This document shows positions 510 through 15,923 of a DNA stretch of 15,923 nucleotides, piece after piece. A program made the translations under genes and the position numbers. The stretch is from assembly GCA_002421565.1 (NCBI GenBank), contig DIKC01000061.1, forward strand, positions 2,813-18,735, read 5' to 3'. The first letter of the stretch is position 1. Each line of letters opens with the position of its first letter. The notes under the pieces are model-generated. The model was not told where the DNA came from, ran no database searches, and worked only from the letters and a program-made list of their open reading frames with translations. Source of the stretch: Desulfobulbaceae bacterium UBA5628 (GTDB lineage: Bacteria > Desulfobacterota > Desulfobulbia > Desulfobulbales > Desulfurivibrionaceae).

Positions 510-2912
510 ATGACCCTCCGGCCCCGCCCAGCACGCTTCGGCCTCATCGCCGTCCTGGTTCTGCTGCTCTGGCCGCTCCGGCCGGCGGCTTGCGAGACGG
601 GGTCAGGTCTTGCATTGCAACAGGTTGTTGCAATGCAAGACCTGACCCCAGCACCCACAGCACCCATGCTGCCTGCGGCTCCGATCACGCCCACCGCCCA
701 ACCGGCACCTTGGGAAATCGTGGCCGATACCCTCTTCCATTACCAGGAGCCGGAGGGAATTTTCGCCGAGGGCGATGCCATTCTCAGCCGCCCCGGCTCC
801 GATCTGGTGATCCGGGCCGATTGGATGCGTTACGACGTGGAGCGTGGAGTGGTCAAGGCCCGGGGCCAGGTGCTGATGATCTCGGCCAGCGAGGAAATCG
901 AGGCCGACGCCGCCACCATCCATCTCGACAGTCAGACCGGCAGGCTGGAGAGCGCCACCATCTTCCTGGCGGAAAACGAATTTTACATCAAGGGCGAGAC
1001 CATCGACAAAACCGGGGAGGAGAGCTACCGCATCCACCAAGGCTGGTTTTCCGCCTGCCTGCCGGAGGAGGAAAACTGCGGCCAACGGCCGGCCTGGTCG
1101 ATCCGCAGCAAGGAGGCCGAGGTCACCCTGGAGGGGATGGCCCATCTCTATCACGCCACCTTCCAGGTCAAGGAGCAGCCGGTGGCCTATACCCCCTACA
1201 TGATTTTACCGGGCAAGACCAAGCGGGAAACCGGCTTTCTCTTCCCGGAATGGTCCTCTTCCGACCGGGACGGCTTCGGCTTCAACCTGCCTTTTTTCAT
1301 CAATCTCTCGCCCAGCGCCGATGTCACCCTCTACCCCAGCTACCTGAGCGAACGTGGCCTCCTGGCCGGGGCTGAATTCCGCTACGAGGCCGGCCCCGGT
1401 TCCCGGGGGATGTTCATGCTCAGCCTGCTCAAGGACGATCTCACCGACACCGATGTCGATGAATACAAAAGCGACGGCCTTCTGCGCACCAATGAAAACC
1501 GCTACTGGCTGCGGGGCAAGGCGGATCACGATTTCGGGGAAAATCTGGCCGGCCGCCTGGATTTCGATCTGGTTTCCGATCAGGATTTTATTCAGGAATT
1601 CCGCGACGGCGCCCAGGGCCGGGAAGAGAGCAACCGGGGATTCGAGCGGATGTTCAAACGATCGTTGCAGGAAGAAACCCTGACCGAGCGTGAATCCTCC
1701 CTGCAAATGATCAAAAACTGGAACATCATGACCCTGGCCGGCGAGATGCACCTGGTCCAGGATGTGCAAAACGACGTGCTGCCGGGTGGCGGTCGCCTGG
1801 CGCGTCCCACCACCCCCTTGCAGGCCCTGCCCCGGATCGATTTCAGCGGCCGCACCCCCTTGCTTACCGGCCGGCGGCCGCTGAGCCTGGCCTGGAACAG
1901 CGAATACGTCAATTACTGGCGGCAACGCGGGATCGGAGCCCATCGTCTCGATCTTCATCCCAAGCTGATCACCCCCATGCCCCGCAGCGGCGGCTGGACC
2001 GAGGGCAAGGTCAGCGTCGGGGTCCGGGAGACCATGTATCAGGTTCAGACCAATCAGGGCGCCCCTTGGGAACATGAACGGTTCCAGGATCGCACCGGCT
2101 TTGATCTCGAGGCCAACCTGGCCACCCTCCTGATGCGGAAATTCAGCCTCACCCGGAACGAAGGCCAGGCCTGGCTGGAACACCTGATCCGGCCCAACCT
2201 AATTTACAAATACGCCAGCCATTCCCAGGAAAACAAACTGCCCAGCCTGGACGGGATCGACCGCCTGGGGACAAGCAACCAGTTGACTTACGAGTTGAAT
2301 AATTATCTGGAAATGGGCGGCATTAACCGCCAGGAGAAAAACGCGGAAAACTTATGGAGCCAGCAAATTGCCTCTTTCCAGCTGGCCCAAAGCTATGATC
2401 TCAACGAGGCGCGACGGGAATTTTCCGCGCTTGTTGACGAACAGCGGCGGGAATTTTCCGATCTCCGTTTCGACCTGAGCGCCTCCCCCTGGGAACGGCT
2501 CAGCTTCCGCTACCAGACCAACCTCAGCATGTACGGCCAAGGGATCAACCGCTACCATCTGACCGGCGGCTACACCCTGGAACAGGGCACCAGCTTTTCC
2601 ACCGATTACCGTTACCTCAAGCACAGCGGCATGGCCGAACCCTACTTCTACACCACCTCCGGCGACTCCCTCCACGACCTAATAGGCAGCATCACCTCGC
2701 CGCTCACCGAAACGATCACCGTCCACGGCGGCCTGACCACCTCGCTTTCCGACAATCATATCAGCGAAGCGGCCCTGGGCCTGCGCTACAAGCCCCATTG
2801 CTGGATGGTTGATCTTGAGTTCCGCCGCTACATCGATGAAAAAACCTTTATGATTATCTTTACCCTGGACGGCATCGGCCCCGCCTTTGACTGGTACAAG
2901 GAGAAAATTTAG
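510..2912 (+). CDS. lptD: LPS-assembly outer-membrane protein LptD
   Basis: An 800-residue protein, close to the E. coli LptD length (784). LptD is the outer-membrane barrel that, with LptE, inserts lipopolysaccharide into the outer leaflet. Residues 1-28 form a signal peptide (Arg-containing start, a hydrophobic run at 11-22, then PAAC). Residues 31-47 are encoded by the REP-like palindrome at 599-649, and a Pro/Ala-rich linker follows to about residue 68. Residues 69-200 fit the OstA/LptA-like periplasmic domain (start WEIVADTLFHYQ, with repeated 'ad.a' strands). The rest is a strand-rich LptD barrel ending in an aromatic strand. Cysteines at 183 and 190 and a single one at 764 (HCW) remain; E. 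coli has two adjacent C-terminal cysteines, so the disulfide pattern must differ. Cys28 is probably at or before the signal cleavage site. Only a weak AAGGA lies 15 bp upstream, so translation may be coupled to ilvD. Confidence 0.93.
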   Translation: MTLRPRPARFGLIAVLVLLLWPLRPAACETGSGLALQQVVAMQDLTPAPTAPMLPAAPITPTAQPAPWEIVADTLFHYQEPEGIFAEGDAILSRPGSDLVIRADWMRYDVERGVVKARGQVLMISASEEIEADAATIHLDSQTGRLESATIFLAENEFYIKGETIDKTGEESYRIHQGWFSACLPEEENCGQRPAWSIRSKEAEVTLEGMAHLYHATFQVKEQPVAYTPYMILPGKTKRETGFLFPEWSSSDRDGFGFNLPFFINLSPSADVTLYPSYLSERGLLAGAEFRYEAGPGSRGMFMLSLLKDDLTDTDVDEYKSDGLLRTNENRYWLRGKADHDFGENLAGRLDFDLVSDQDFIQEFRDGAQGREESNRGFERMFKRSLQEETLTERESSLQMIKNWNIMTLAGEMHLVQDVQNDVLPGGGRLARPTTPLQALPRIDFSGRTPLLTGRRPLSLAWNSEYVNYWRQRGIGAHRLDLHPKLITPMPRSGGWTEGKVSVGVRETMYQVQTNQGAPWEHERFQDRTGFDLEANLATLLMRKFSLTRNEGQAWLEHLIRPNLIYKYASHSQENKLPSLDGIDRLGTSNQLTYELNNYLEMGGINRQEKNAENLWSQQIASFQLAQSYDLNEARREFSALVDEQRREFSDLRFDLSASPWERLSFRYQTNLSMYGQGINRYHLTGGYTLEQGTSFSTDYRYLKHSGMAEPYFYTTSGDSLHDLIGSITSPLTETITVHGGLTTSLSDNHISEAALGLRYKPHCWMVDLEFRRYIDEKTFMIIFTLDGIGPAFDWYKEKI
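599..649. repeat. REP-like perfect palindrome inside lptD
   Basis: Left arm 599-622 (GGGGTCAGGTCTTGCATTGC then AACA) and right arm 626-649 are perfect reverse complements over 24 bp, separated by the 3-base loop GGT. The 51-bp element is a whole number of codons and adds about 17 residues (31-47) to LptD without a stop. The arm resembles the repetitive extragenic palindromes I recall near IS200-like (RAYT/Y1) transposases in deltaproteobacteria; this family assignment is from memory and not tested. No transposase is in the window and I saw no second copy. As RNA it would form a very stable hairpin about 90 bases after the lptD start. Confidence 0.85.
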
Positions 2913-2947
2913 GGTAAGATAGCGGTTTCATTTTTTCCATTTACGAT

Positions 2948-2953
2948 AAGGAG
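2948..2953 (+). promoter_or_regulatory. Strong Shine-Dalgarno of ilvC
   Basis: AAGGAG lies 7 bases before the ATG at 2961, the best ribosome binding site in the left part of the window. It fixes the ilvC start and suggests that ilvC is translated independently of lptD. No convincing -35/-10 pair is seen in the 48-bp lptD-ilvC gap. Confidence 0.7.
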
Positions 2954-2960
2954 AAGGATC

Positions 2961-4436
2961 ATGGGAGAAAATTACTTCAATCGCCTGCCGTTGCGCCTGC
3001 AACTTGAGGAACTTGGCCAGTGCCGTTTTATGGACGCCGCGGAATTCAACGACGGGGTGGCGGCATTAAAGGGTAAAAAAATCGTCATTGTCGGCTGCGG
3101 CGCCCAGGGCTTGCACCAAGGGCTCAACCTACGGGACAGCGGCCTCGATGTTTCCTATGCCCTGCGGCCGGAGGCGATCAGCAGCCAGCGCCAGTCCTGG
3201 AAGAACGCCAGCGGCAACGGCTTTACCGTCGACACCCCGGAAAAGCTGATCCCCACCGCCGATCTGGTGATCAACCTGACCCCGGACAAGCAGCACAGCA
3301 AGGTGGTGGCCGCGATCATGCCCCTGATGAAGCAGGGCGCCTGCCTTTCCTACTCCCACGGCTTCAACATCGTCGAGGAAGGGATGGAAATCCGCAAGGA
3401 CATCACGGTGATCATGGTCGCTCCCAAATCTCCCGGCACCGAGGTGCGGGAGGAATACAAGCGCGGCTTCGGGGTGCCGACCCTGATCGCGGTCCATCGG
3501 GAAAACGACCCCAAGGGCGAGGGCTGGGAGCTGGCCAAGGCGTATGCCTGCGGCACCGGCGGTCACCGGGCCGGGGTGCTGCAATCATCCTTCGTGGCCG
3601 AGGTCAAGTCCGACCTGATGGGCGAACAAACCATCCTCTGCGGGATGTTGCAGGCCGGCAGCCTGCTCTGCTTCGACAAGATGGTGGCAAAAGGAATCGA
3701 GCCCGGCTACGCCTCCAAGCTGATCCAGTACGGCTGGGAGACGATCACCGAGGCATTGAAACACGGCGGGATCACCAACATGATGGACCGCCTTGCCAAC
3801 CCGGCCAAGATCGCGGCCGCCAAGCTGGCCGATGAATTGAGCGAAATCCTCCGGTCGCTGTTTGAAAAACACATGGACGACATCATGAGCGGCGAATTTT
3901 CCCGGACCATGATGGCGGACTGGGCCAACAACGACGCCAATTTGCTCAAATGGCGGGCCGCCACCGGCGAAACCGCCTTTGAGAAGGCGACCTCCACCAG
4001 CGCCGAAATCAGCGAGCAGGAGTACTTTGACCACGGCATCCTGATGGTGGCGATGATCAAGGCCGGGGTGGAACTGGCCTTCGACACCATGACCGCGGCC
4101 GGAATCAAGGAAGAGTCCGCCTATTACGAATCCCTCCACGAGGTGCCGCTGATCGCCAACCTGATCGCCCGCAAAAAGCTCTACGAAATGAACGTGGTAA
4201 TCTCCGACACCGCCGAATACGGCTGCTACCTCTTTGCCCACGCGGCCGTGCCCCTGCTCGCCGATTTCATGAGCAAGATCGACACCGACGTGATCGGCCG
4301 GGGGCTGACGGTAAAGGACAACGGGGTGGACAACCGGGAGCTGATCCGGGTCAACGAAGAAATCCGCTACACCGGAGTCGAGGAGATCGGGGCCGAACTG
4401 CGGGGCTACATGGGAGCGATGAAGGCGATCCGCTGA
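2961..4436 (+). CDS. ilvC: Ketol-acid reductoisomerase (NADP+), long class II
   Basis: A 491-residue protein, the same length as E. coli IlvC and alignable with it from end to end. It isomerises and reduces 2-acetolactate or 2-aceto-2-hydroxybutyrate to the dihydroxy acids used by IlvD. The Rossmann motif GCGAQG is at 45-50. Arg69, Arg77 and Ser79 match the E. coli NADPH-specifying residues Arg68, Arg76 and Ser78. The Mg-binding segment SDLMGEQ is intact, as is a second knotted repeat with the [10 protein letters not shown] motif. Short class I enzymes (about 330-340 residues) are the commoner form in many bacteria, so the long form is worth noting. The gene is preceded by lptD and converges with the minus-strand ugd gene after 6 bp. 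Confidence 0.97.
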
Positions 4437-4442
4437 GGGGCC

Positions 4443-5747
4443 TCAAGGTGTACCCACCCCTGAGTAAACAAACCCTTGCGCACGCATTTTGGCAGGATCG
4501 TAAACATTGCGCAGGTCGATAAAGATAGGGGTGTTGAGCAGGGCTTTAATACGAGGCAAGTCCAGGGCGCGGTACTGGTTCCATTCGGTCAGCAGCACCA
4601 CGGCATCGGCTCCTTGGCAGGCCTCGTAGGGGGTTTGGCAGAAAGTGCATTCCGGTAGTATCGCCTTGGCTTCTTCCATGGCCTGTGGGTCGTGAACCTG
4701 CAAACGGGCACCTTTTTCCGCCAAAGCTGGCAAGATGGTCAGGGCCGGTGCTTCCCGCATGTCATCGGTTTCTGGCTTGAAGGCCAGCCCCAGCACCGCA
4801 ATGGTTTTATTCGCCTCACTGCCGAGGGCCTGGCGAATCTTTTTGATCATCCGGGCTTTTTGGCCGTGATTTACTTCCACCGCCGCCTCCACCAAGCGCA
4901 AGGCGTTGCCATGTTCCTGGGCGATACGTAATAAGGCCAAGGTATCCTTGGGAAAACATGATCCACCGTAACCAGGCCCTGCGTGTAGAAATTTACGGCC
5001 GATGCGCCCATCCAGTCCCATCCCCAGGGCCAGTTGCTTTACATCGGCCCCAACTTCTTCACAAAGGTTGGCCATTTCATTGATAAAGCTGATCTTGATG
5101 GCCAAAAAGGCGTTGGCTGCGTATTTGGTCAACTCGGCGGTTCGGCAGTCGGTGGCCACAAAAGGGATCGCGAGCCGGTAGAGTGGCTGATATATCTCCT
5201 TGACCAATTCAATGGCTCTCGGGGTGGCCGCGCCGATGACAATGCGATCCGGGTGGGTGAAATCATTGATCGCCGCACCTTCCCTTAAAAATTCAGGGTT
5301 GGAAACCATATCAAACTCCGCCCGTGGATTTTCCTGGCGGATAATCCGGTCGATGTTGTCGGCGGTGCCCACCGGAACCGTACTTTTATCAATCACCACG
5401 GTATAGCCTTGCAGGTAAGGGGCGATATCCCGGGCCGCCTGATAAAGATAGTGAAGGTCGGCATAACCATTGCCGTGACGATGACTGGGGGTACCTACCG
5501 CCAGAAACACCGCCGCCGCCTCAGCCACCGGCTCTGCCACGACGGTGGTAAAATTGAGCCGTTGTTCGGCCACATTCTTAGTAAGCAGCGCGTCCAGGCC
5601 CGGTTCGTAAATCGGCACCTCTCCCCGCTGCAAACCGGCAATTTTTTTCTCGTCGATATCAACACAGGTAACCTGATGACCGAATTCAGCCAGACAAACC
5701 CCTGAAACCAAGCCGACATAACCGGTGCCGATGATGGTTATTTTCAT
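4443..5747 (-). CDS. ugd: UDP-glucose 6-dehydrogenase
   Basis: A 434-residue protein that oxidises UDP-glucose to UDP-glucuronate with two NAD+ in the cytoplasm, supplying uronic acid to surface polysaccharides. It starts with the NAD-binding motif GTGYVGL (7-13). VPVGT is near 124-128, LTKYAANAFLA holds Lys208 and Asn212, and GPGYGGSCFPKD carries the catalytic Cys264. The C-terminal UDP-binding domain contains LAFKPETDDMREAP (321-334). The start is placed at MKITIIG because the GGGGG-rich sequence just upstream can serve as a ribosome binding site; an in-frame start 24 bases upstream (5771) would add 8 residues that the family lacks. A related UDP-ManNAc dehydrogenase is less likely given the UDP-glucuronate epimerase gene next door. 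Confidence 0.95.
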   Translation of the reverse strand: MKITIIGTGYVGLVSGVCLAEFGHQVTCVDIDEKKIAGLQRGEVPIYEPGLDALLTKNVAEQRLNFTTVVAEPVAEAAAVFLAVGTPSHRHGNGYADLHYLYQAARDIAPYLQGYTVVIDKSTVPVGTADNIDRIIRQENPRAEFDMVSNPEFLREGAAINDFTHPDRIVIGAATPRAIELVKEIYQPLYRLAIPFVATDCRTAELTKYAANAFLAIKISFINEMANLCEEVGADVKQLALGMGLDGRIGRKFLHAGPGYGGSCFPKDTLALLRIAQEHGNALRLVEAAVEVNHGQKARMIKKIRQALGSEANKTIAVLGLAFKPETDDMREAPALTILPALAEKGARLQVHDPQAMEEAKAILPECTFCQTPYEACQGADAVVLLTEWNQYRALDLPRIKALLNTPIFIDLRNVYDPAKMRAQGFVYSGVGTP

Positions 5748-5788
5748 CCCTGCCCCCTCTGTTGAGTACAATGATTGATCAGCGCTGG

Positions 5789-5817
5789 AATATCCCCCAA
5801 ACTCCGTTTTTTTCCAA
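5789..5817 (-). promoter_or_regulatory. Candidate sigma70-type promoter for ugd
   Basis: On the minus strand, TTGGAA (5812-5817) and GATATT (5789-5794) are separated by 17 bp. Each matches 4 of 6 consensus bases. The -10 lies about 40 bp upstream of the ugd start at 5747. This is a match by eye only. Confidence 0.35.
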
Positions 5818-5847
5818 GCGTATTTTGTTGAGCATGCTCTTTTTTGT

Positions 5848-5875
5848 TTGTATTGTCGGAGCTTTTCGGTACATT
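5848..5875 (+). promoter_or_regulatory. Weak candidate promoter for the polysaccharide operon
   Basis: TTGTAT (5848-5853) and TACATT (5870-5875), 16 bp apart, match 3 and 4 of 6 consensus bases. They lie 63 bp before the epimerase start. A 10-bp perfect palindrome GAGCATGCTC at 5830-5839 lies just upstream and could be an operator. The whole divergent region (5748-5938) is more A+T-rich than the genes. Confidence 0.2.
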
Positions 5876-5938
5876 CTCAACCAGTGAACACATAACCCGC
5901 AACAGTTTTTGCGCAGACCATGGGAGCACGGCATCAGC

Positions 5939-6958
5939 ATGAAAGTGGAGACGATTCTGGTTACCGGGGCTGCCGGGTTTATTGGCTTTTTTCTTTGTCG
6001 GCGGCTGTTGGCCGAGGGGAAAAAAGTGGTCGGGGTCGATAACCTGAACGACTACTATGATCCGGCCCTGAAAAAGGCCCGCCTCGCTCAATTAAATGAT
6101 CATCCGGCTTTCACCTTCCAGAAACTGGATATTGCGGATCGCCCCGGGGTATCCGGGGTTTTTGCCGCGTATAGCTTTGACGTGGTGGTGAATCTGGCAG
6201 CTCAAGCCGGGGTGCGGTACTCCCTTGAGAACCCCAATGCCTACGTGGATGCCAATCTGGTTGGTTTTGCCAATATATTGGAAGGATGCCGTCACAGTGA
6301 AATAGCGCATCTGGTTTTTGCCTCCTCCAGTTCGGTCTACGGCGCAAACCGCAAACTGCCCTTCTCGGTCCACGACAACGTCGATCACCCCGTATCTCTC
6401 TACGCGGCCACTAAAAAAGCCAATGAATTACTGGCCCACTCTTACAGCCATCTCTACGGCCTGCCGGCGACCGGCTTACGTTTTTTTACTGTATATGGTC
6501 CATGGGGCAGGCCCGATATGGCCTACTTTCTCTTTACCAAGGCGATTCTAGCCGGGCAGCCCATCAAAATATTCAACCATGGCAAAATGAGCCGGGATTT
6601 TACCTATATCGACGATATCATCGAGGGCGTTTTCAGGGTAATGCACAAACGGCCCGAGGCCACCCCGCCTGCCGGCGACGCCGCACCAAACCCGGCCACC
6701 AGTAACTGCCCCTACCGAATCTACAACATCGGCAACAACCAACCAGAAGACCTGCTTCACTTCATCGACATCCTGGAACAACTGCTGGATCGCCAGGCCA
6801 TCCGGGAATATCTGCCCATGCAGGACGGAGATGTGCCCGCCACTTGGGCGGATATCGACGAGCTTGCCAACGATGTCGGCTTCAAACCCGCAACAACGCT
6901 GGCTGATGGATTGCAACGATTTGTTTTATGGTACAAAGATTACTATCTGGCCCGATAA
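5939..6958 (+). CDS. UDP-glucuronate 4-epimerase (NAD-dependent epimerase/dehydratase family)
   Basis: A 339-residue short-chain dehydrogenase-type enzyme predicted to interconvert UDP-glucuronate and UDP-galacturonate. The NAD motif TGAAGFIG is at 9-16. The SSSSVYG segment and the YAATK catalytic pair (Tyr155, Lys159) follow. NLNDYYD, LAAQAGVRYSLENP, VYGPWGRPDMA and KMSRDFTYIDDI are hallmarks of the UDP-glucuronate epimerase branch rather than GalE. The start is the ATG at 5939, right before the Rossmann strand, with GGGAG 12 bases upstream; a TTG at 5909 would add 10 residues with no domain. The divergent neighbour ugd makes its substrate, which supports the assignment. It is the first gene of the + strand polysaccharide run. 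Confidence 0.92.
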   Translation: MKVETILVTGAAGFIGFFLCRRLLAEGKKVVGVDNLNDYYDPALKKARLAQLNDHPAFTFQKLDIADRPGVSGVFAAYSFDVVVNLAAQAGVRYSLENPNAYVDANLVGFANILEGCRHSEIAHLVFASSSSVYGANRKLPFSVHDNVDHPVSLYAATKKANELLAHSYSHLYGLPATGLRFFTVYGPWGRPDMAYFLFTKAILAGQPIKIFNHGKMSRDFTYIDDIIEGVFRVMHKRPEATPPAGDAAPNPATSNCPYRIYNIGNNQPEDLLHFIDILEQLLDRQAIREYLPMQDGDVPATWADIDELANDVGFKPATTLADGLQRFVLWYKDYYLAR

Positions 6959-6968
6959 TGAACAAAAA

Positions 6969-8771
6969 ATGTGGCGCAGGAAACAGGGATCAAGGTTGAA
7001 TTGTTTGTTGATTGAACCTCTTCACATACTGCTGAACCGGCGACGGCGGCTGCGCATGGCCCTGTTGCTGGGCGGACTGCTGCTTGGCGGACTACTGGAG
7101 ATGATCAGTATCGGCAGTATCCCTGCCTTCGTGGCGCTGCTGGTCGCGCCGGAACGCCTCTTTACCTTGTTGCCGGAAAACGATTTAACCATCGGTATGG
7201 TTAACATGGAACCGGCCACCTTGGTGTTTACCGGCGCACTTTTCCTGGCCGGGCTTTTTTTCGTCAAAAATCTTTACCTGGCCGGGCTGATTTATGCCGA
7301 ACAACGCCTGATTCGTGATGTCAACATTACGGTTTCCCTCCGCCTTTTAAGGGCCTATCTTTACGCTCCCTACGTTTTTCATCTGCAACATAATCCCGCC
7401 AAACTTATACGTAAAATTACTTACGACAGCGTTCAGGCAGTACAGGTCATCTCCGGCGCCATGCGGATAATGCGGGAATGTCTGGTACTGTTGGTGGTCT
7501 TTGCCCTGCTGATGCTGATGGACCCACTGGTTTCGCTGGCAATCTTTCTGTTGCTGGGCGCCACTACCAGCGTTTTCTACTTGCGGGTGCGGCAGACCCT
7601 TGCCGCTCGTGGCCGTTTGGAACAACAACACCGGGCCGCCCAACTCAAAGCGGTCAACCAGGGTCTGGGCGCCATCAAGGACGCCAAGGTAATGGGCCGC
7701 GAAGCCAGCATCCTTAAGGAGTACGAGCAGGAAACCCGCGGGCTCCAACGCCAGCAGCTTTACCTGCGGGTGGTGAGCGAGTTTCCCAAACTCTTTTTGG
7801 AAGCGACAGCCATCAGCGCGGTTCTGGTGGTCAGCGTAATTTTTATGTTGCTGGAACGACCGGCTCAGGAGATGTTGCCGGTGCTTACCCTGCTGGCGGT
7901 GGCGGTGGTGCGGATGATCCCGGCCTTCAACGGCATCAGTTGGGTGCTGAGCAGCATGCGCTTTCAGTTGCCTTGCCTGGAAACCGTATGCCGCGAGCTG
8001 ACCCGGTTGCAAGACCCCGCCGGAGAGCAGGAGTTAAACAACGAACCGAATACCGCCGCCGACGCTGATCGTCAACCATTACAAAAGGCTATCAGCCTGG
8101 AAAATGTATGGTTCCGCTACCCCGAAGCCGCCGATGAGACCCTGCGGGGAATATCGCTGACCATCGCGGCGGGCGAATCGGTGGCCCTGGTCGGCCCCAG
8201 CGGTTCCGGCAAAAGCACCCTGGTGGATATCATCCTCGGCCTGCTATCTCCCACCGCCGGGCAGGTGCTGGTGGACGGAGAAGATATTCACAACCGGCTG
8301 GCAAGCTGGCAGCGCCAGATCGGTTATATTCCCCAGGATATCTATCTGCTGGACGACACCATCCGGCGCAACATCGCCTTCGGGCTGGACAACCAGGAAA
8401 TCGACGAGGTCGCTGTGAACGAGGCAATCCGGGCCGCGCAACTGGAAGAATTTGTTGCCACCCTGTCGCTGGGTTTGGACACCGTAATCGGCAACCGGGG
8501 CGTCCGACTTTCCGGCGGCCAGCGCCAGCGGGTCGGCATTGCCCGCGCCCTGTACCATAAGCCCAAAGTACTGGTGATGGACGAAGCCACCTCGGCCCTG
8601 GACAACGACACCGAACGCGAGGTGATTGTCGCCATCAACCGCCTGCGGGGGGAACTCACTTTGATTATGGTGGCGCACCGGCTGACGACGGTGGAGGGGT
8701 GTGATCGTGTATATACGCTGAGTAGCGGGGCATTATTCTATGGGGATACGGCAGACAACCCTGTCGGCTGA
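6969..8771 (+). CDS. Fused ABC exporter, lipid-linked oligosaccharide flippase-like (PglK/MsbA type)
   Basis: A 600-residue half-transporter with membrane and ATPase domains in one chain. Hydrophobic segments are near 30-60, 83-110, 163-205 (two) and about 275-330 (two). The ATPase has Walker A GPSGSGKST (409-417), Q-loop GYIPQD, signature LSGGQ (514-518), Walker B VLVMDEATSALD (from 534) and the H-loop VAHRL. The N-terminal pattern, with an E-rich first helix (LLEMISIGSIPAFVALL), recalls PglK/WlaB flippases. This and the location between sugar genes suggest that it moves a lipid-linked glycan across the inner membrane; the substrate is inferred. The ATG at 6969 (10 bp after the epimerase stop) has no Shine-Dalgarno; TTG codons at 7005 or 7008, after AAGG at 6992-6995, are alternatives. 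Other export substrates are possible. Confidence 0.85.
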   Translation: MWRRKQGSRLNCLLIEPLHILLNRRRRLRMALLLGGLLLGGLLEMISIGSIPAFVALLVAPERLFTLLPENDLTIGMVNMEPATLVFTGALFLAGLFFVKNLYLAGLIYAEQRLIRDVNITVSLRLLRAYLYAPYVFHLQHNPAKLIRKITYDSVQAVQVISGAMRIMRECLVLLVVFALLMLMDPLVSLAIFLLLGATTSVFYLRVRQTLAARGRLEQQHRAAQLKAVNQGLGAIKDAKVMGREASILKEYEQETRGLQRQQLYLRVVSEFPKLFLEATAISAVLVVSVIFMLLERPAQEMLPVLTLLAVAVVRMIPAFNGISWVLSSMRFQLPCLETVCRELTRLQDPAGEQELNNEPNTAADADRQPLQKAISLENVWFRYPEAADETLRGISLTIAAGESVALVGPSGSGKSTLVDIILGLLSPTAGQVLVDGEDIHNRLASWQRQIGYIPQDIYLLDDTIRRNIAFGLDNQEIDEVAVNEAIRAAQLEEFVATLSLGLDTVIGNRGVRLSGGQRQRVGIARALYHKPKVLVMDEATSALDNDTEREVIVAINRLRGELTLIMVAHRLTTVEGCDRVYTLSSGALFYGDTADNPVG

Positions 8772-8783
8772 GCGAAAACGACT

Positions 8784-9797
8784 ATGACTCCCACCTTTTT
8801 GGAATACCAAACAGCGATTCGCAACACTTTAGGCCTACTGATCCCGAATGACGCCCATCTCGCCCTGTTTGATTTTCCCAATTATTCGAACGTAGGAGAC
8901 AGCGCCATTTGGCTCGGTGAATTATGTTATTTACAAACCCTGCCCAAAGTAAAGATTGTGGCGGCTGAAGATCTCAGTGTCATGTCCAGAAGACTCCCTG
9001 ATCTGCCGGACGGAACTTTGATTCTGATTAGTGGAGGCGGCAATCTCGGTGATCTTTGGCCACAACACCAGGCATTGAGGGAACGGCTGATCGAACACTA
9101 CCAGCACCATCGGATTATTCAACTCCCCCAATCCATCCATTTTCAAGACAAACGCAACGAAGCAAGATGTCGAAAGGTTTTCAACAAACACCGTGATTTC
9201 CATCTATTAGTCAGGGATCATGTCAGCCTGGATTTTGCCAGACAAATATATCAGGGTCCGATACACCTCTGTCCCGACATGGCGCTGTATCTGGGCAAAT
9301 TGTCGAGAACTGTTGCGCCATCCCATCCCATTTTTTGTCTGCTACGTTCCGACAAAGAAAAACTGGCATCCCCGCACTCCCCCAGCGTGGGTAACACGGA
9401 GGTGGCCTGCAACGACTGGTTGGAGGAGGCCACAAGCTTATCGCATCAGGCGATCTCCTGGGTTCAAAAGAAAAGAATTCGCCCCTTGTTCCCCCATGCT
9501 TTTTTTCACAAGACACGACTCAATCTTTACAACCATCTGGCCCAGAAGCGGCTGCATCGCGGTTGCAATCTTCTCTGTACAGGTCGGGCAGTAATTACAG
9601 ATCGTCTCCATGGTCATATCCTTTGTACCATGTTGGAAATTCCACATGTGGTATTGGACAACATCTACAGAAAAATCGGAAATTTCCGGGATACATGGAA
9701 TACCGGGCACGGCCTATGCTTGGAATCAACAAGTACGAACGATGCAATACGTCTTGCTCAACACCTCCTGCTTTCGCGAGATGACAGTGATGCGTGA
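8784..9797 (+). CDS. Polysaccharide pyruvyltransferase family protein
   Basis: A 337-residue protein of the polysaccharide pyruvyltransferase/CsaB-like family, whose members add ketal-linked pyruvate from phosphoenolpyruvate to sugars. The family signatures are N-terminal PNYSNVGDSAIWLGE (32-46), SGGGNLGDLWP (83-93) and C-terminal TDRLHGHIL (272-280), followed by IPHVVLDNIYRKIGNFRDTW. Some members are not pyruvyltransferases, so the reaction is inferred. The gene starts 12 bp after the ABC gene. It uses many AGA and ATA codons and is A+T-richer than its neighbours (hand counts: 42% G+C in 9601-9660 and 47% in 9661-9720, against 63% in 8521-8580 of the ABC gene), which suggests separate acquisition. 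Confidence 0.82.
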   Translation: MTPTFLEYQTAIRNTLGLLIPNDAHLALFDFPNYSNVGDSAIWLGELCYLQTLPKVKIVAAEDLSVMSRRLPDLPDGTLILISGGGNLGDLWPQHQALRERLIEHYQHHRIIQLPQSIHFQDKRNEARCRKVFNKHRDFHLLVRDHVSLDFARQIYQGPIHLCPDMALYLGKLSRTVAPSHPIFCLLRSDKEKLASPHSPSVGNTEVACNDWLEEATSLSHQAISWVQKKRIRPLFPHAFFHKTRLNLYNHLAQKRLHRGCNLLCTGRAVITDRLHGHILCTMLEIPHVVLDNIYRKIGNFRDTWNTGHGLCLESTSTNDAIRLAQHLLLSRDDSDA

Positions 9798-9927
9798 CAA
9801 GAAACCCGCCCATCACAGACGGGGCGTAGTACAAGCTACCGCTAAAGATCAGACTAGGTGTGCAGACAGTTCGCAGTTCGCTAAAAGCAACTCCTATAGC
9901 TCTTAACAATGATTACCAAGCTACGCT
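9798..9927. other. A+T-richer intergenic gap in the polysaccharide run
   Basis: This 130-bp gap is the only sizeable break in the + strand run from 5939 to the window end. It holds a 7-bp tandem repeat AGTTCGC at 9868-9881 and a TATAGC that could be a poor -10 near 9895, but no convincing -35. A 5-bp stem (CGCCC/GGGCG near 9807-9827) lacks a T-tract, so no terminator is called. No Shine-Dalgarno precedes the ATG at 9928. Confidence 0.4.
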
Positions 9928-11976
9928 ATGGCCATAAAAAATAATATCCCTTCACCTCCCGGTGTCAGTGTTGTGATCTGTTGCTACAACAGCGCAACTC
10001 GCCTGCCTGACACCATAGGCCACCTGCTGGCGCAGGACATCCCGGCTGGGCTTGCCTGGGAGATCATCGTCATTAACAACGCCTCCACCGACAACACGGC
10101 GCATGTTGCCCATTCACTATGGCCCGAAGATGCTCCTGCTCAGCTCCGGGTGGTCGACGAACCTGAACGCGGCCTCATCCACGCACGCAAGCGAGGGCTT
10201 CGGGAAGCCAGATATGAATTGGTGAGCTTTATTGATGACGACAACTGGATTGCTTCCGATTGGGTTCGGCTGGCCTTCGAGATTATGGCGACAAATCCTG
10301 CAATTGGTGCCTGTGGTGGCCAGAATGAAGCCGTATTCGAAGTCGAACCACCATTCTGGTTTGATCGTTTCAAGCGCTCTTACGCGGTGGGAACCCAAAA
10401 CGACACCCCCGGCGATCTCACCTGGAATGAGGTCCGGTATAACCGTTATCTGTGGGGGGCAGGGCTTATCGTGCGGAAGGCTGCCTGGCAGCACCTTGAA
10501 TCCGAAGGCTTTACCTTTATCCTTTCGGGAAGAACCGGTAACTCTCTCAAGTCGGGGGAGGATTATGAACTGTGCGATGCCCTTCGACTTACCGGCTGGA
10601 AATTGTGGTATGCACCGGAGCTGAAATTGGAACACTACCTGCCTCGTGAAAGACTCACCTGGAATTATCTAAAAAGGCTTCACTACGGCTTTGGGGCAGC
10701 AAACACCGGCCTCGACCCGTACCGGTCACTGGCCGATGGACCCGGCAAGCCTCCCCGCCATCTATTCGGGAAATATTGGATATTTGAAATACTGCGTTGC
10801 GTCTATAGATTAACGATCCGTCACCCAATCGGCTTTCTCTGTGGAAAATCTTTCAGGTTCACCGGAAACCATATCGTTCTTGCCAGCTGCTTCCAGATCG
10901 GCAGATTGGTGGAACTGGTCAAATTGCGCGGCAAGTACGACCGTAACTTCGTAGCAGTAAGGAGTGCGCGCCCTGGGCAGGCCGGGCATTACGGCAGAAT
11001 TGAGTGGCCTATAATGAAAGAGAATTACAAGAAAACACGTAATGACGAGAAAAATATCGTCATTGGCATCCCCACCTTCCGCCGCCCGCAATGCCTGTGG
11101 CGGCTACTCGACTCGATTGCCGCGCAACAGCCCCCTTTCACCCCCCATGTGCTGGTGGCCGACAACGAGGGAGAAGGCGGGGCCGGCCTCCGGGTGGTTG
11201 AGGAGGTTCGCGACCAGGGCTTCCCTTTTCCACTGGTGTCGATTGCCGTCCCGGAACGGGGCATTTCGCGGGTGCGCAACGCCTTGCTGAAGATCGCCTT
11301 TGATGATATGGGGGCCGATGCCCTGGCAATGGTCGATGATGATGAGCGGGTGGAGCCGGGGTGGCTGGCCGCGCTGGTGGCCATGCAGGAACAGGGTGGC
11401 TACGACGCGGTGGGCGGAACCGTGATTCCCGAATTTGAGGTGCCGACACCGAGTTGGGCGGAAGGATTGCACACCTACCGCATCCGAACGCAGCCGGCTG
11501 GGGACGTGCCTGGTATTTATGGGGCAGGTAGCGTCCTTCTGAACCGTACAATCCATACTGATTTTCAGGGCGTTTGGTTTGATCCGGCTTTTGGCTTGAG
11601 CGGCGGGGAAGACACCGAATTTTTCACCAATCTCCAGCACCGGGGTGCCTCATTTGGTTTCGCCCCACTGGCCATCACCCATGAGTTCATTCACGCCAGT
11701 CGCCTTACCAGAAAATGGGCGCTTCAAAGGGAATATCAAGTGGCTGCTTCGGAAGCCAGGCGCTTTAAACGCTACCATCCCACAGTACGGGGCTGGGCCA
11801 ACCACTTTTTCAAAATACCTGCCGCCCTTGTCGTCTCAAGCCTGCTGATGATTACCTTGTTCTGGTCACCACGTCGCCAAATGAGGATGGCCCTGCTAAT
11901 GGCAAGGCAAATTGGTAAACTGAACGGCCTTTTTGGCTCGCCCCCGAAAATTTACCTGAAAACCCATGGCCGATGA
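9928..11976 (+). CDS. Two-domain GT2 glycosyltransferase (apparent gene fusion)
   Basis: A 682-residue protein with two complete GT-A folds. Domain 1 (about 12-345) has SVVICCYNSA, EIIVINNASTDNT, a DDD metal motif at 103-105 and SGEDYEL (209-215), then a helical tail. Domain 2 (377-682) has IVIGIPTFRRP, VDDD at 469-472, SGGEDTEFF from 558, and a hydrophobic helix near the C-terminus. Domain 2 is clearly homologous, along its whole length, to the next gene. The linker holds an out-of-frame relic-like start (ATG at 11042) and an in-frame ATG at 11014 (Met363). The first half is poorer in G+C (hand count 45% in 10201-10260) than the second (72% in 11161-11220), so the halves probably have different histories. 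Sugar donor and acceptor cannot be read from the sequence. A single merged protein, or two products using Met363 as a second start, are both possible. Confidence 0.85.
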   Translation: MAIKNNIPSPPGVSVVICCYNSATRLPDTIGHLLAQDIPAGLAWEIIVINNASTDNTAHVAHSLWPEDAPAQLRVVDEPERGLIHARKRGLREARYELVSFIDDDNWIASDWVRLAFEIMATNPAIGACGGQNEAVFEVEPPFWFDRFKRSYAVGTQNDTPGDLTWNEVRYNRYLWGAGLIVRKAAWQHLESEGFTFILSGRTGNSLKSGEDYELCDALRLTGWKLWYAPELKLEHYLPRERLTWNYLKRLHYGFGAANTGLDPYRSLADGPGKPPRHLFGKYWIFEILRCVYRLTIRHPIGFLCGKSFRFTGNHIVLASCFQIGRLVELVKLRGKYDRNFVAVRSARPGQAGHYGRIEWPIMKENYKKTRNDEKNIVIGIPTFRRPQCLWRLLDSIAAQQPPFTPHVLVADNEGEGGAGLRVVEEVRDQGFPFPLVSIAVPERGISRVRNALLKIAFDDMGADALAMVDDDERVEPGWLAALVAMQEQGGYDAVGGTVIPEFEVPTPSWAEGLHTYRIRTQPAGDVPGIYGAGSVLLNRTIHTDFQGVWFDPAFGLSGGEDTEFFTNLQHRGASFGFAPLAITHEFIHASRLTRKWALQREYQVAASEARRFKRYHPTVRGWANHFFKIPAALVVSSLLMITLFWSPRRQMRMALLMARQIGKLNGLFGSPPKIYLKTHGR

Positions 11977-11998
11977 CACCCCATAACAAAGAAATCAG

Positions 11999-12934
11999 AT
12001 GACGGCAAAAATCGTTATCGGCATTCCCACCTTCCGGAGGCCGCAGGGCCTGACCCGGCTACTGGCGTCAATTGCCCGTCAACAGGCCCCCTTTGTCCCC
12101 CATGTGCTGGTTGCGGACAATGAAGGCAAAAATGGGGCCGGGATACGGGCGGTGGCGGCGGCCCAGCAAGGTGGTTTCCCCTTTCCACTGACCACCATCG
12201 CCGTCCCCGAACGGGGTATTTCCCAGGTGCGCAACGCACTGCTGCGGGTGGCTTTTACGGAGATGAGCGCCGATGCCCTGGCCATGATCGATGATGACGA
12301 ACAGGTTGAACCCAACTGGATCGCCGCCCTGGTGGCCATGCAGCAGCAGGGTCAATTTGACGTTGTTGGCGGCACGGTCTTGCCGGAGTTTGAATCACTG
12401 CCCCCGGCCTGGTCCGATGGGCTGGATATTTACTACCGGGCTACCAAACCGCCCCCCGGCCCGGCCGACATTATTTACGGCACAACCAATGTTCTGCTGC
12501 ACAAAGCCCTTTTCCACCACCAACCCACCACCATTCAATTTGACCCGGCTTTCAGCCTCAGCGGCGGCGGCGACGCCGAATTTTTCCGGCGCCTGCATCG
12601 ACGTGGCACCCGTTTTGGTTTTGCACCAGAGGCGGTCAGCCACGAATGCTTCCAGGCCAGCAGGATGACCAGAAAATGGGCCTGGCAAAGGTCATTTCGC
12701 ATCGGTAGTTCCGATGCCAGGATAATCAAGCTCCATGCTACTCCGCGCCAGTGGCTGGAAAGCATTGCCAAACTGACGGTTGCCCTGGTAGTTTCCCCGG
12801 CGCTGGTTGTGGCGCTGGCCTGGTCACCACCCCGGCAAATGTGGGCGATCCTGCTACTGGCCCGCCAGTTGGGTAAACTCCAGGGATTTTTGGGCAAGCC
12901 GCTAAAAACCTATGAAAACACCCACGGCAAATAA
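11999..12934 (+). CDS. GT2 glycosyltransferase, paralogue of the preceding second domain
   Basis: A 311-residue GT-A fold enzyme starting MTAKIVIGIPTFRRPQ. It keeps the DDDE metal-binding motif (near 98-101), PFVPHVLVADNEG, FPFPLTTIAVPERGIS and a C-terminal hydrophobic segment before WSPPRQM. It aligns with residues 377-682 of the upstream protein over its full length, well above half identical by eye and nearly identical in the first 15 residues, so it arose by tandem duplication. The acidic motif SGGED of the paralogue is SGGGD here (Gly191, Asp192), which may change activity or specificity. It begins 22 bp after the upstream stop; a clear Shine-Dalgarno is absent. The donor sugar is unknown. 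Confidence 0.88.
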   Translation: MTAKIVIGIPTFRRPQGLTRLLASIARQQAPFVPHVLVADNEGKNGAGIRAVAAAQQGGFPFPLTTIAVPERGISQVRNALLRVAFTEMSADALAMIDDDEQVEPNWIAALVAMQQQGQFDVVGGTVLPEFESLPPAWSDGLDIYYRATKPPPGPADIIYGTTNVLLHKALFHHQPTTIQFDPAFSLSGGGDAEFFRRLHRRGTRFGFAPEAVSHECFQASRMTRKWAWQRSFRIGSSDARIIKLHATPRQWLESIAKLTVALVVSPALVVALAWSPPRQMWAILLLARQLGKLQGFLGKPLKTYENTHGK

Positions 12935-12938
12935 GAGG

Positions 12939-13853
12939 ATGAGCGATCACCCCCAGTTCAGCGTCGTCATCCCCACCTACAACCGGGGGCACCTGTTGAC
13001 CGGGGCGGTCAACTCCGTCCTCGCGCAAAGCTGCCGGGATTTTGAACTGCTGATAATCGACGACGGCTCCACCGACAATACCCGTGAAATTGTCGCCCAA
13101 ATTGATGACCACCGTGTTCGCTGCATAATGCGGAAAAACGGCGGCGGCTCAGCGGCTCGCAATACCGGCATTGATGCCGCCAAAGGCAAATTTATAGCCT
13201 TTCTCGACGCCGACGACCACTTTACCCCCAACCACTTGGCCAACGCGCTGCCGTTTCTTGCCTCCGCCCCCAACACCTGCATCTTTACCAGAATCATCGT
13301 CAACCGGGGCCACGGCATCACTTTCCTTAAGCCACCCCGAGCGCCTCGTACCAATGAGCATATCGCCGATTATCTATTACGGGACCGGGGGTTCGTACAA
13401 ACCAGCTCCCTCATCGTGCCGACAGAACTGGCCAGAATGGTGCGTTACGATGAAAAATTAACCCTTGGGGATGACACCGATTTCGCCATCCGGCTGGTCC
13501 ACACCGGAGCCCGCCTGCGGATGCTCGATGAACCGGGGGCCATCTGGAATGATTATTGGTCGCCGAACCGGCTCTCCGGCAAACACGATCCCGATGCGAG
13601 GCTTGCCTGGCTTGACCGGATCAAAGGTCTGCTTCCCCGGCGGGCCTTTCTGGCCGACCAGGGATGGCATGTTGCCAAAGCTTATGCGCGACAAGGGCGG
13701 TTGCTGAGGGCCCTGGGTTATTATCTACGTGCCCTTTTTGCAGGCTGCTACCGGCCAAAATTTGCACTGGTTGTTTTCCTACAGATCGTTCTGCCGACGT
13801 CCACTTACCGGAAGCTGGCCGACAACCTTGCCCGCCGCGGCTTAACCCCGTGA
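12939..13853 (+). CDS. GT2 family glycosyltransferase
   Basis: A 304-residue GT-A enzyme with a canonical N-terminus (FSVVIPTYNRGHLL, then LLIIDDGSTDNT), GGGSAARNTGID, the metal-binding LDADDH and an acidic LGDDTDFAIRL motif likely to hold the catalytic base. The C-terminal 60 residues are helical and basic, suggesting membrane contact. It is not closely related to the two paralogous domains upstream. The start at 12939 is 4 bp after the previous stop and leaves a short N-terminus typical of the family, but AAGAGG directly abuts it. The ATG at 12912, overlapping the previous gene by 23 bp and adding 9 residues, is the alternative. Its role is presumably chain extension of the same glycan; the specificity cannot be read. 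Confidence 0.88.
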   Translation: MSDHPQFSVVIPTYNRGHLLTGAVNSVLAQSCRDFELLIIDDGSTDNTREIVAQIDDHRVRCIMRKNGGGSAARNTGIDAAKGKFIAFLDADDHFTPNHLANALPFLASAPNTCIFTRIIVNRGHGITFLKPPRAPRTNEHIADYLLRDRGFVQTSSLIVPTELARMVRYDEKLTLGDDTDFAIRLVHTGARLRMLDEPGAIWNDYWSPNRLSGKHDPDARLAWLDRIKGLLPRRAFLADQGWHVAKAYARQGRLLRALGYYLRALFAGCYRPKFALVVFLQIVLPTSTYRKLADNLARRGLTP

Positions 13854-13863
13854 AAGTGGCGCC

Positions 13864-13868
13864 AAGGG
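13864..13868 (+). promoter_or_regulatory. Shine-Dalgarno deciding the wecG-type start
   Basis: AAGGG lies 5 bases before the ATG at 13874. The open frame extends upstream to 13664 inside the previous gene, and this site together with the domain start selects 13874. Confidence 0.5.
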
Positions 13869-13873
13869 CCGAC

Positions 13874-14665
13874 ATGAACCAATCCCACCCAACCCTGAAC
13901 CGATCTCCTTTTGCCACGGTCAACATCGGCGGCCTGGATATCGCCTGTGCCGGTCGGGCGGAGCTGGCGGCCATGATGACGGCAGACTGCCTGGCCGCGC
14001 GGGCCGAGAACCGCGTTCCCGAAACAAGCTTGGCCTTCGACGCCAACGGTCACGGGCTCTCCTTGGCGGCCACCGACCCGGCCTATCGCGCAGCGGTTAC
14101 TCGGGCGGATATCATCCATGCCGATGGCGGGTTTCTGGTCACTCTGGCTAAACTTTTCGGGAGCCAACCGATCCGGGAACGTAGCGCCACCACCGATATG
14201 TTCCACGACCTGGCCGAAGCCGCCGCCGGTGCCGGGCTTTCGTTTTATCTGCTTGGCGGCAGTGAAGCGGTCAACGCCGAATGTGCCCGGATCATGCAGC
14301 AGCGTTATCCGGGGCTGAACATCGTCGGTCGGCGCCATGGTTACTTTACCCCGGCTGAAGAACCGGGAATTATCGACCACATCAACGCTGTCCGGCCGGA
14401 CCTGTTGTGGGTCGGGATTGGCAAACCTAAAGAACAGTTGTTTGCCGTTAAATATCGCGATAGATTGCGGGCTGTCTGGTTGATTACCTGCGGCGGCTGT
14501 TTCAACTACATTACCGGCGACTACCGCCGGGCGCCGCTCTGGATGCAGAAATACAATCTCGAATGGCTCCATCGCGCCGTATGCACCCCCCGCAAGCTGC
14601 TGCTGCGCTACCTGACCACCAACCCCCATGCCCTCTGGCTGGCATTAACCAAAAGTAAATGGTGA
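13874..14665 (+). CDS. WecG/TagA/CpsF family glycosyltransferase (GT26)
   Basis: A 263-residue enzyme, normal for the GT26 family. Known members transfer ManNAc or ManNAcA (TagA, WecG) or other sugars onto lipid-linked acceptors at the cytoplasmic face. Seen in order are HADGGFLVTLAKLFG, the RSATTDMFHDL segment, LGGSEAVNAE, PGLNIVGRRHGYFTP, PDLLWVGIGKPKEQ and the C-terminal ITGDYRRAPLWMQKYNLEWLHRA block. That last segment is the membrane-associating appendage in the family. The sugar cannot be assigned. It starts 20 bp after the preceding GT2 and ends 2 bp before the phosphotransferase gene, so the two are probably translationally coupled and act on consecutive steps. Confidence 0.92.
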   Translation: MNQSHPTLNRSPFATVNIGGLDIACAGRAELAAMMTADCLAARAENRVPETSLAFDANGHGLSLAATDPAYRAAVTRADIIHADGGFLVTLAKLFGSQPIRERSATTDMFHDLAEAAAGAGLSFYLLGGSEAVNAECARIMQQRYPGLNIVGRRHGYFTPAEEPGIIDHINAVRPDLLWVGIGKPKEQLFAVKYRDRLRAVWLITCGGCFNYITGDYRRAPLWMQKYNLEWLHRAVCTPRKLLLRYLTTNPHALWLALTKSKW

Positions 14666-14667
14666 GC

Positions 14668-15923
14668 ATGAACCCCAACCTTAACCGACCGATCCGCCCT
14701 CGGATGCCACTTGCTCTGTTGCTGCCGCGCTTGGGAGATATCCTGCTTCTGCCGCTGGTGCTGGTGCTGGCCGCCCTGGTGAGTGGCCGAACCCTGGCCG
14801 GTGAACCCTACCTGTTGGCGGCGCTGGCGGCCATGTTGCTCTTTGCTTTTTTTTCCATGGTGCTGCGTCTTTACCCAGCCGATCAAACCGTGGCGCCGAC
14901 CTTCGGTAAACTGCTGCAGGCCTGGGCGTTGACCATTTTTGTCCTGCTGCTGCTCAGTTTTGCCGGCAAGACTACCGAAATATACTCCCGGCTGGTGATT
15001 GGGCTCTGGTTTGTGGCCGTGCCGGTGGCTCTGCTGCTCTGGCGCCGCTTTTGCCTTTGGCTGCTGACAGCCTTGGGACGACAGGAGAGTAGTCAGCGGC
15101 AGGTGGCGATCGCCGGGGCCGGTGATCTGGGTGCCCATCTGGGCCGCTTGTTGGGCGATGATAACTTTGGGGGCGGGCACTTGGTCGCCTATTATGACGA
15201 CGCCAAAACCGTGGGCTATTGTCCCCTGGAAAAAAGCGACATCGCCGTGGCGGGCACCCTTGATGATCTCTGCCGAAAAGCGCTGGCGGGGAAAATCGAC
15301 CGGGTCTATCTGGCCCTGCCTTTACGGGCCGAAAAGCGGATGGTCGAAGTGGCCCGCCGCTTGGGTGATGCCTGTGTCGAAGTCCATCTGGTGCCGGATC
15401 TCTTCGTCTTTAATCTGGTGCAACCCCGCTGGTTCAGCTTTCACGGCCTGCCCATGGTCAGCATCCACGACACTCCCCACACCGGGCTGGACTCCTGGCT
15501 CAAGCAGACCAGCGACTACCTGCTGACCCTGCTGCTGTTGCTCCTGTTCAGCCCGCTGCTACCGGTGATCACCCTTGGGGTCAAGCTCTCGTCGCCTGGC
15601 CCGATAATTTTCACGCAGCGGCGCTACGGCCTGGATGGACGCGAGATCGTGATCTGGAAGTTTCGCACCATGACGGTCTGCGAAGACGACCTTAAACATT
15701 GCGACCAGGCCCGCCCCCACGACCCGCGCCTGACCCGGTTCGGCGCTCTGCTTCGCCGCTACTCCCTGGATGAATTGCCGCAACTGATCAACGTGCTCCA
15801 GGGGCGAATGGCCCTGATCGGCCCTCGCCCCCATGCCGTGGCCCACAACGAGCAGTACCGGCGGCTGATTCCCGACTACATGCTGCGCCACAAGGTCAAA
15901 CCCGGCATCACCGGCTGGGCGCA
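14668..15923 (+). CDS. wcaJ: Undecaprenyl-phosphate glucose phosphotransferase, WcaJ type (3' end outside window)
   Basis: I translated this frame to the window edge: 418 complete codons, no stop. The enzyme transfers a hexose-1-phosphate from a UDP-sugar to undecaprenyl phosphate, initiating repeat-unit synthesis at the inner membrane. Four hydrophobic segments lie in residues 12-135 and a Rossmann-like region with GAGDLGAHLG near 150-160. A fifth hydrophobic segment is near 280-305. The catalytic domain follows, with SPGPIIFTQRRYG, WKFRTM, SLDELPQLINVLQG, LIGPRPHAVAHNEQYRRLI and YMLRHKVKPGITGWA. The PRPHAVAHNE and YMLRHKVKPG strings are typical of the WcaJ subgroup rather than WbaP. The usual basic cluster ahead of the fifth segment is reduced to KQTSD. 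Only a few C-terminal residues should be missing. It overlaps no other gene and starts 2 bp after the GT26 stop. Confidence 0.92.
   Translation, partial: MNPNLNRPIRPRMPLALLLPRLGDILLLPLVLVLAALVSGRTLAGEPYLLAALAAMLLFAFFSMVLRLYPADQTVAPTFGKLLQAWALTIFVLLLLSFAGKTTEIYSRLVIGLWFVAVPVALLLWRRFCLWLLTALGRQESSQRQVAIAGAGDLGAHLGRLLGDDNFGGGHLVAYYDDAKTVGYCPLEKSDIAVAGTLDDLCRKALAGKIDRVYLALPLRAEKRMVEVARRLGDACVEVHLVPDLFVFNLVQPRWFSFHGLPMVSIHDTPHTGLDSWLKQTSDYLLTLLLLLLFSPLLPVITLGVKLSSPGPIIFTQRRYGLDGREIVIWKFRTMTVCEDDLKHCDQARPHDPRLTRFGALLRRYSLDELPQLINVLQGRMALIGPRPHAVAHNEQYRRLIPDYMLRHKVKPGITGWA

Follow-up and report, generated by a model that had tools for sequence, protein, structure and literature searches.

The window, that is, the whole 15,923-nucleotide stretch of DNA that was analysed, carries lptD (510–2912) with the last part of an ilvD-type dehydratase gene (1–504) on one side and ilvC (2961–4436) on the other, an odd setting for an LPS-export gene; upstream of lptD in several relatives there is likewise sequence that by eye resembles the end of ilvD. 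The remainder (4443–15921) is a polysaccharide cluster with UDP-glucose dehydrogenase, NAD epimerase, ABC transporter, pyruvyl transferase, glycosyltransferase and WecG/TagA genes, and at its end an ORF that, by eye only, is sugar-transferase-like. A 682-aa protein of this cluster (9928–11976) contains two family-2 glycosyltransferase stretches and is followed by a 311-aa glycosyltransferase (11999–12934) that by eye resembles its second half, so that the two look like a fusion or duplication within the cluster.

The features of the lptD region are as follows.

510–2912, + strand: lptD, 800 aa, host gene of the insertion; the element encodes G31–P47 (GSGLALQQVVAMQDLTP)
510–596, + strand: signal-peptide-like N-terminus (judged by eye), common to the closest relative, P0002
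599–649, no strand: 51-bp palindrome, probably a dimer of a 24-bp transposon end (terminal inverted repeat, TIR), as judged from the arm match, the single-stranded DNA fold and copies elsewhere
599–622, + strand: left arm GGGGTCAGGTCTTGCATTGCAACA, identical to the end repeat beside RAYT genes of other genomes
623–625, no strand: loop GGT (GAT and GGC in the other two copies)
626–649, − strand: right arm, the exact reverse complement of the left arm

A sequence-only reading of this DNA had described a perfect palindrome lying in frame in lptD, and arm matching (24/24 positions complementary) together with the ORF confirms this. In 20 first-order Markov versions of the window, with a loop of up to 20 allowed, the longest perfect arm was 8–12 nt, compared with 24 nt in the window itself; the palindrome is therefore not due to chance. 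As single-stranded DNA, the 51-mer is predicted to fold with −30.5 kcal/mol (z = −13). It is 17 codons long, and frames 1 and 2 are open on either strand, with TGA in frame 3.

LptD is the sole Pfam match of the ORF (E = 2.7e-36, residues 329–707). The element starts at the third position of codon 30 and adjoins the signal-peptide-like start (by eye) on its downstream side. The N-terminus read from position 510, MTIRPRPARLGLIAGL, has the same start as MTLRPRPARFGLIAVL in P0002 (80% identical), with the common pattern MT[IL]RPRPAR[LF]GLIA, and since P0002 has this N-terminus too, lptD probably starts there, upstream of the element. The database gene prediction for the same lptD (P0001, 100% identical, 759 aa) takes M42, a residue encoded by the element, as its start, as would be expected if the palindrome were a noncoding 5′ leader upstream of the real start. 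We give this explanation hardly any credence, because the N-terminus is common to P0002, LptD must be exported, and two further copies of the element, described below, are flanked on both sides by homologous protein. The start of P0001 is taken as probably mis-called, which illustrates that an insert of this kind can make a gene prediction start inside the element. A RAYT-type repeat serving as coding sequence between a signal peptide (here recognized by eye) and the mature domain, and adding about 17 residues, is thus supported as had been proposed.

P0002 is without the element and has at the same place its own low-complexity linker of about 60 residues. In nine more distant LptD relatives, an N-terminal hydrophobic stretch is followed by a W-E motif with almost no linker between them, and the genomes of a further lptD comparison show a similar near-absence. 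Since the length of the linker differs among relatives, the insertion site tolerates a change in length. The sequence-only reading had allowed that relatives might encode the same residues with diverged DNA; in all ten aligned LptD relatives, the residues are absent rather than encoded in this way.

Three copies in one genome

The draft assembly (1.80 Mb, 197 contigs, 61% complete) was searched with an 18-nt arm core at up to 3 mismatches. Three complete pairs were found, each exactly 51 bp long, nearly identical and in frame inside a gene, together with one stray single arm site (3 mismatches, contig C120); the assembled part of this 61% complete genome yielded no extragenic pair. The arm thus does occur elsewhere in the genome, an outcome on which the sequence-only reading had made its own proposal depend, and two in-frame genic copies are added to the one that it reported.

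G000:C149:1479–1529: copy two, in a RegB-like histidine kinase gene, in another frame than in lptD, peptide GVRSCIATDCCNARPDP
G000:C178:16837–16887: copy three, in a PLD-like gene, in the same frame as in lptD

The three palindromes, perfect or near-perfect, differ at three positions in total: two loop positions and one arm position. Each adds 17 amino acids to its protein. At every site the reading frame is still intact once the 51 bp are taken out, and any target duplication that can be seen amounts to one base at most.

The kinase copy is the most telling of the three. The element (residues 402–418 of the stop-to-stop frame) lies within a Pfam HisKA match (residues 369–443; E = 6.4e-5 and 23.4 bits, below the Pfam curated cut-off of 26.9). 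The kinase reads HHLREA-[17 residues]-TPELLED where its closest relative, P0242, has HFLRRSPAPAPELLED, and the flanks joined without the insert give HHLREATPELLED. HisKA is a two-helix fold, and the insert would accordingly extend the loop between the helices; the length of this loop also varies among the other aligned kinase relatives. In the PLD-like protein, the alignment places the insert in a variable-length linker between conserved blocks. Only the kinase has a Pfam domain on both sides of the element; the matches of lptD and the PLD-like gene lie downstream only, and homology on their upstream side comes from alignments. All three insertion sites, the LptD N-terminus, the HisKA loop and the PLD-like linker, vary in length among relatives.

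Palindromes can trouble assemblers, and the sequence comes from a draft MAG-like assembly in 197 contigs. Nevertheless, each of the three copies lies on its own contig and has its own loop, one copy also differs in an arm, the reading frame runs on into homologous protein (to either side in the kinase and the PLD-like gene, downstream in lptD), and the nearest lptD matches among relatives belong to the same family. The probability that we are dealing with an assembly or binning artefact is therefore close to negligible.

The closest relatives found for LptD (P0002, 80%), the PLD-like protein (P0122, 77–80%) and the kinase (P0242, 88–90%) are all without the insert. It should be noted that these searches were limited to scoring about 8000 candidates, those with the most words in common with the query, and that P0002, P0122 and P0242 come from separate contigs and may represent different organisms. 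None of the other genomes in the 116-genome search for relatives belongs to the same genus; a Desulfurivibrionaceae MAG and Desulfurivibrio are among the lptD relatives that carry a name, which makes this family likely for the own genome. The arm core (≤1 mismatch) occurs in 16 of these 116 genomes, the own genome counted, and in none of the 26 others of the same family. The near-identity of the copies and the absence of the inserts from the closest relatives, seen at the protein level, point to recent insertion.

Identity of the arm

From its sequence, we consider the arm to be the TIR (GGGGTCAGGTCTTGCA...) of IS200-like tyrosine transposases with a C-terminal HTH, the TIRYT/TIRtron class. 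In the part of Di Nocera et al. 2013 considered here (PMC3733652), TIRYTs have the end motif GGGGWSAS and are flanked by TIRs, which also occur as dimers; the class probably corresponds to subclass 2.1, with C-terminal HTH domains, as far as the relevant part of PMC6006769 goes. GGGGTCAG, present at both outer ends of the 51-mer, fits this motif.

Exact copies of the 24-mer occur in 43 stretches of 25 GTDB species assemblies, assigned by their record titles to Gamma- and Betaproteobacteria, Rokubacteria, Omnitrophota, Aminicenantes, Endomicrobiales, Acetothermia, Chloroflexi and others. At 5/43 loci, the 24-mer has a RAYT ORF no farther than 100 bp away (broken in L055 and L058); at the other 38 there is none within this distance, and at 37 none anywhere in the examined stretch, and a tblastn search of the exact-arm loci added no further RAYT-like locus. 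Inverted end cores stand on both sides of the RAYT at three of the 43 (L037, L065 and L068). The exact 24-mer is present at both ends of the transposase in L065, which is from Endomicrobiales; in L037 and L068, one end has it in full and the other matches it from the first nucleotide over 15 nt or more. Among order-level relatives, RAYT-like DNA was seen at 8/28 partly overlapping loci, two of the matches being just 26 and 34 residues long, and in L080 and L093 such DNA is enclosed by inverted GGGGTCAGGTCTTGCAA ends with a spacing of about 920 bp. Transposase units with the repeat at both ends are thus present in three distant MAG groups and in two relatives of the same order.

L037, L065 and L068 encode transposases with the Y1_Tnp domain, the HYH and Y-x3-NP motifs and matches to a C-terminal HTH, which exceed the Pfam cut-off in L065 (HTH_23) and stay below it for the best matches of L037 and L068.

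Taken together, the end motif, the TIR-flanked HTH transposases and the known TIR dimers lead us to consider the 51-mer a putative TIR dimer, that is, a minimal MITE, rather than a classical REP. Being palindromic, RAYT-linked and dimeric, the element might also be a classical RAYT/REPIN product, two inverted REPs of the GTAG or CGTC class. No GTAG or CGTC was found in or beside it, however, and the GGGGWSAS end and the C-terminal HTH of the linked transposases are TIRYT marks, which makes such an origin quite improbable. GTAG/CGTC REPs are defined by the tag next to a stem, many copies and a mostly extragenic location, and here we see no tag and three pairs, none extragenic. Of the REP-like, RAYT-linked element first suggested, the RAYT-type repeat stands, and the family is replaced by GGGGWSAS TIRYT ends placed head to head.

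Further arrangements of the repeat were observed. In L068, a gammaproteobacterial MAG, the end core is present five times on one side of the RAYT and four times, inverted, on the other (4859–4983 and 2660–3912). A same-order relative (G070; L096, L072, L087) has a variant family, GGGGTCAGGTCTTGTNTTTTGACATT, that forms several dimers; a section of about 1.2 kb in L096 contains three of these. In L064, a Chloroflexi MAG, two direct arm copies (2575 and 3662) are each followed by the same longer sequence; judging from L064, the arm may end other elements as well.

The own assembly contains three Y1_Tnp hits, two 153-aa IS200-like proteins and one 222-aa RAYT, and no matching TIRYT is among them, with about 39% of the genome missing from the assembly. 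A host RAYT for the element, for which the sequence-only reading had proposed a search, accordingly has no convincing candidate in the assembled 61%. The 222-aa RAYT (contig C163) was rejected as the cognate transposase: its ends, GGGGACAGTATAT by eye, differ, an HTH match is missing, and a search of the genome for dimers of its 12-nt end spaced by 0–30 nt gave none. By eye, it lies between GGGGACAGTATAT and ATATACTGTCCCC (L023, G000:C163:2500–6000), a unit that appears to represent another type of TIRtron, again with the GGGGWSAS motif. Carriage by a phage or plasmid was also rejected, as a blastn search of phages and plasmids with the 51-mer gave nothing up to E = 1; the exact 24-mer was absent from viral contigs.

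Coding location and mechanism

Paired cores were found in 6/25 exact-arm assemblies (32 copies) and in 2/395 genomes of the phylum, one being the own genome and the other having two copies; genomes with any pair have 2 to 12. The pattern covered 8–38 nt between cores and missed longer dimers, such as those of L026, L029 and L063. The 37 dimers examined were therefore these 32, the two from the other phylum genome and the three own copies; without L144, which has one imperfect end, 36 remained with GGGG at both ends, 33 of them from other genomes.

A GC-frame coding signal on both sides and one open frame were seen in 1/33 copies from other genomes (L155, 64 bp) versus 2/3 own copies, the lptD copy failing because its left side is the short N-terminus. 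The Fisher test gives p = 0.014 by this rule, which is crude and applied to copies that are non-independent within a genome, so that the value is a guide only; the same holds for p = 0.0006, obtained from a mixed count with lptD added by homology. The dimers of other genomes are 44 to 68 bp long, and 24/33 are not multiples of three. Pfam, run on 13 ORFs over 11 of these copies, matched two, both only downstream of the element, and by the rule of a Pfam domain across the element the own genome scores 1/3 (the kinase), which makes this a weak test. The comparison of coding context favours the own genome, because homologue alignments were made for its copies alone.

In this comparison the own genome looks like an exception within its family. 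Most of a bacterial genome is coding, however, and a largely coding genome takes most random insertions in genes, so three copies cannot show a preference. The three could be genic by chance, and location alone is not telling; only open, tolerated insertions survive in genes. A TIR dimer fixed at 51 bp that is specialised for coding genes and seeds the same 17-residue peptides in hypervariable loops seems to us unlikely; if true, the TIRYT system would be a peptide-inserting engine outside Rickettsia.

The predicted RNA fold of 231 nt around the element (−105.5 kcal/mol, z = −4.8; 1/200 shuffles at least equally stable) retains the full 24-bp stem, in agreement with the stable mRNA stem that had been predicted earlier. 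Such a stem, about 90 nt into lptD, could slow ribosomes or expose a cleavage site and thus be kept for tuning LptD output and with it LPS export. The predicted stem is the one observation in favour of such a role. We nevertheless regard this function as improbable and rejected it as the main reading, because the same element is found in two unrelated genes, far from their starts; moreover, the LptD proteins of the ten aligned relatives manage without it, and perfect arms need no selection in copies that are young and nearly identical.

Overall, the explanation that we consider highly probable, even with only three copies behind it, is that the 51-mer is a minimal non-autonomous element of two 24-nt TIRs head to head, moved by a TIRYT in trans and tolerated where it lies. 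Its full-length relatives would be the TIRtrons, in which a Y1 HUH transposase (RAYT/TIRYT, subclass 2.1-like, with a C-terminal HTH) is placed between the same inverted ends. A TIRYT acting in trans would have copied or moved the folded single-stranded hairpin, and the hairpin would have been inserted without an obvious target duplication. With 17 codons and two of three frames open on either strand, a genic insertion could pass as a 17-residue peptide and survive in frame, presumably in flexible regions. The 17-residue peptides are most likely tolerated passengers.

Relation to known systems

REPINs consist of two inverted REP units that form one hairpin, for which a RAYT acting in trans is presumed to be required. 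The 51-mer shares with them the two inverted units folding into one hairpin and, presumably, the need for such a RAYT; it differs in not being of the GTAG type and in its few copies (2 to 12) in those searched genomes that hold any.

TIRtrons are closest, with the same GGGGWSAS end, inverted ends around a Y1 transposase with a C-terminal HTH, and TIR dimers, as described in the parts of PMC3733652 and PMC6006769 considered. In-frame genic TIR dimers are, however, not stated in that part of PMC3733652, whereas here all three paired copies lie in genes. We found no report of a TIR dimer of the TIRYT class inside genes in the passages of the literature covered, and the first 14 nt of the arm gave no match in the literature.

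Intragenic GTAG/CGTC REPs are also palindromic units or dimers within ORFs; the part of PMC3733652 that treats them argues that they occupy linkers or loops, with more than half being dimers or groups that encode 20–30 residues. The present element has another end sequence and transposase class, and no extragenic pair in the assembled part of its genome.

Rickettsia palindromic elements (RPEs; Ogata et al. 2000, 2002) are described in the passages on them in PMC10969869 and PMC3733652 as selfish and in frame in unrelated proteins. They are about 150 bp long (PMC10969869), and the shorter RPE-4 and RPE-6 are counted as CGTC REPs (PMC3733652), again according to these passages. Like an RPE, the palindrome lies in frame in several unrelated genes, here three, and is absent from the proteins of the closest relatives found; unlike the RPEs so described, it is 51 bp long, has visible full-length transposase relatives and belongs to a distant phylum.

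As far as these sources go, in-frame intragenic REPs and RPEs are already known and the TIR-dimer variant is new. It means that transposon ends, and not only classical REPs and RPEs, come to lie in frame in proteins, here an essential one and a regulatory one of an environmental bacterium, with related proteins that display the insert-free state. For the question of whether new peptide segments of proteins arise through RAYT-class transposases, it offers a clean test case.
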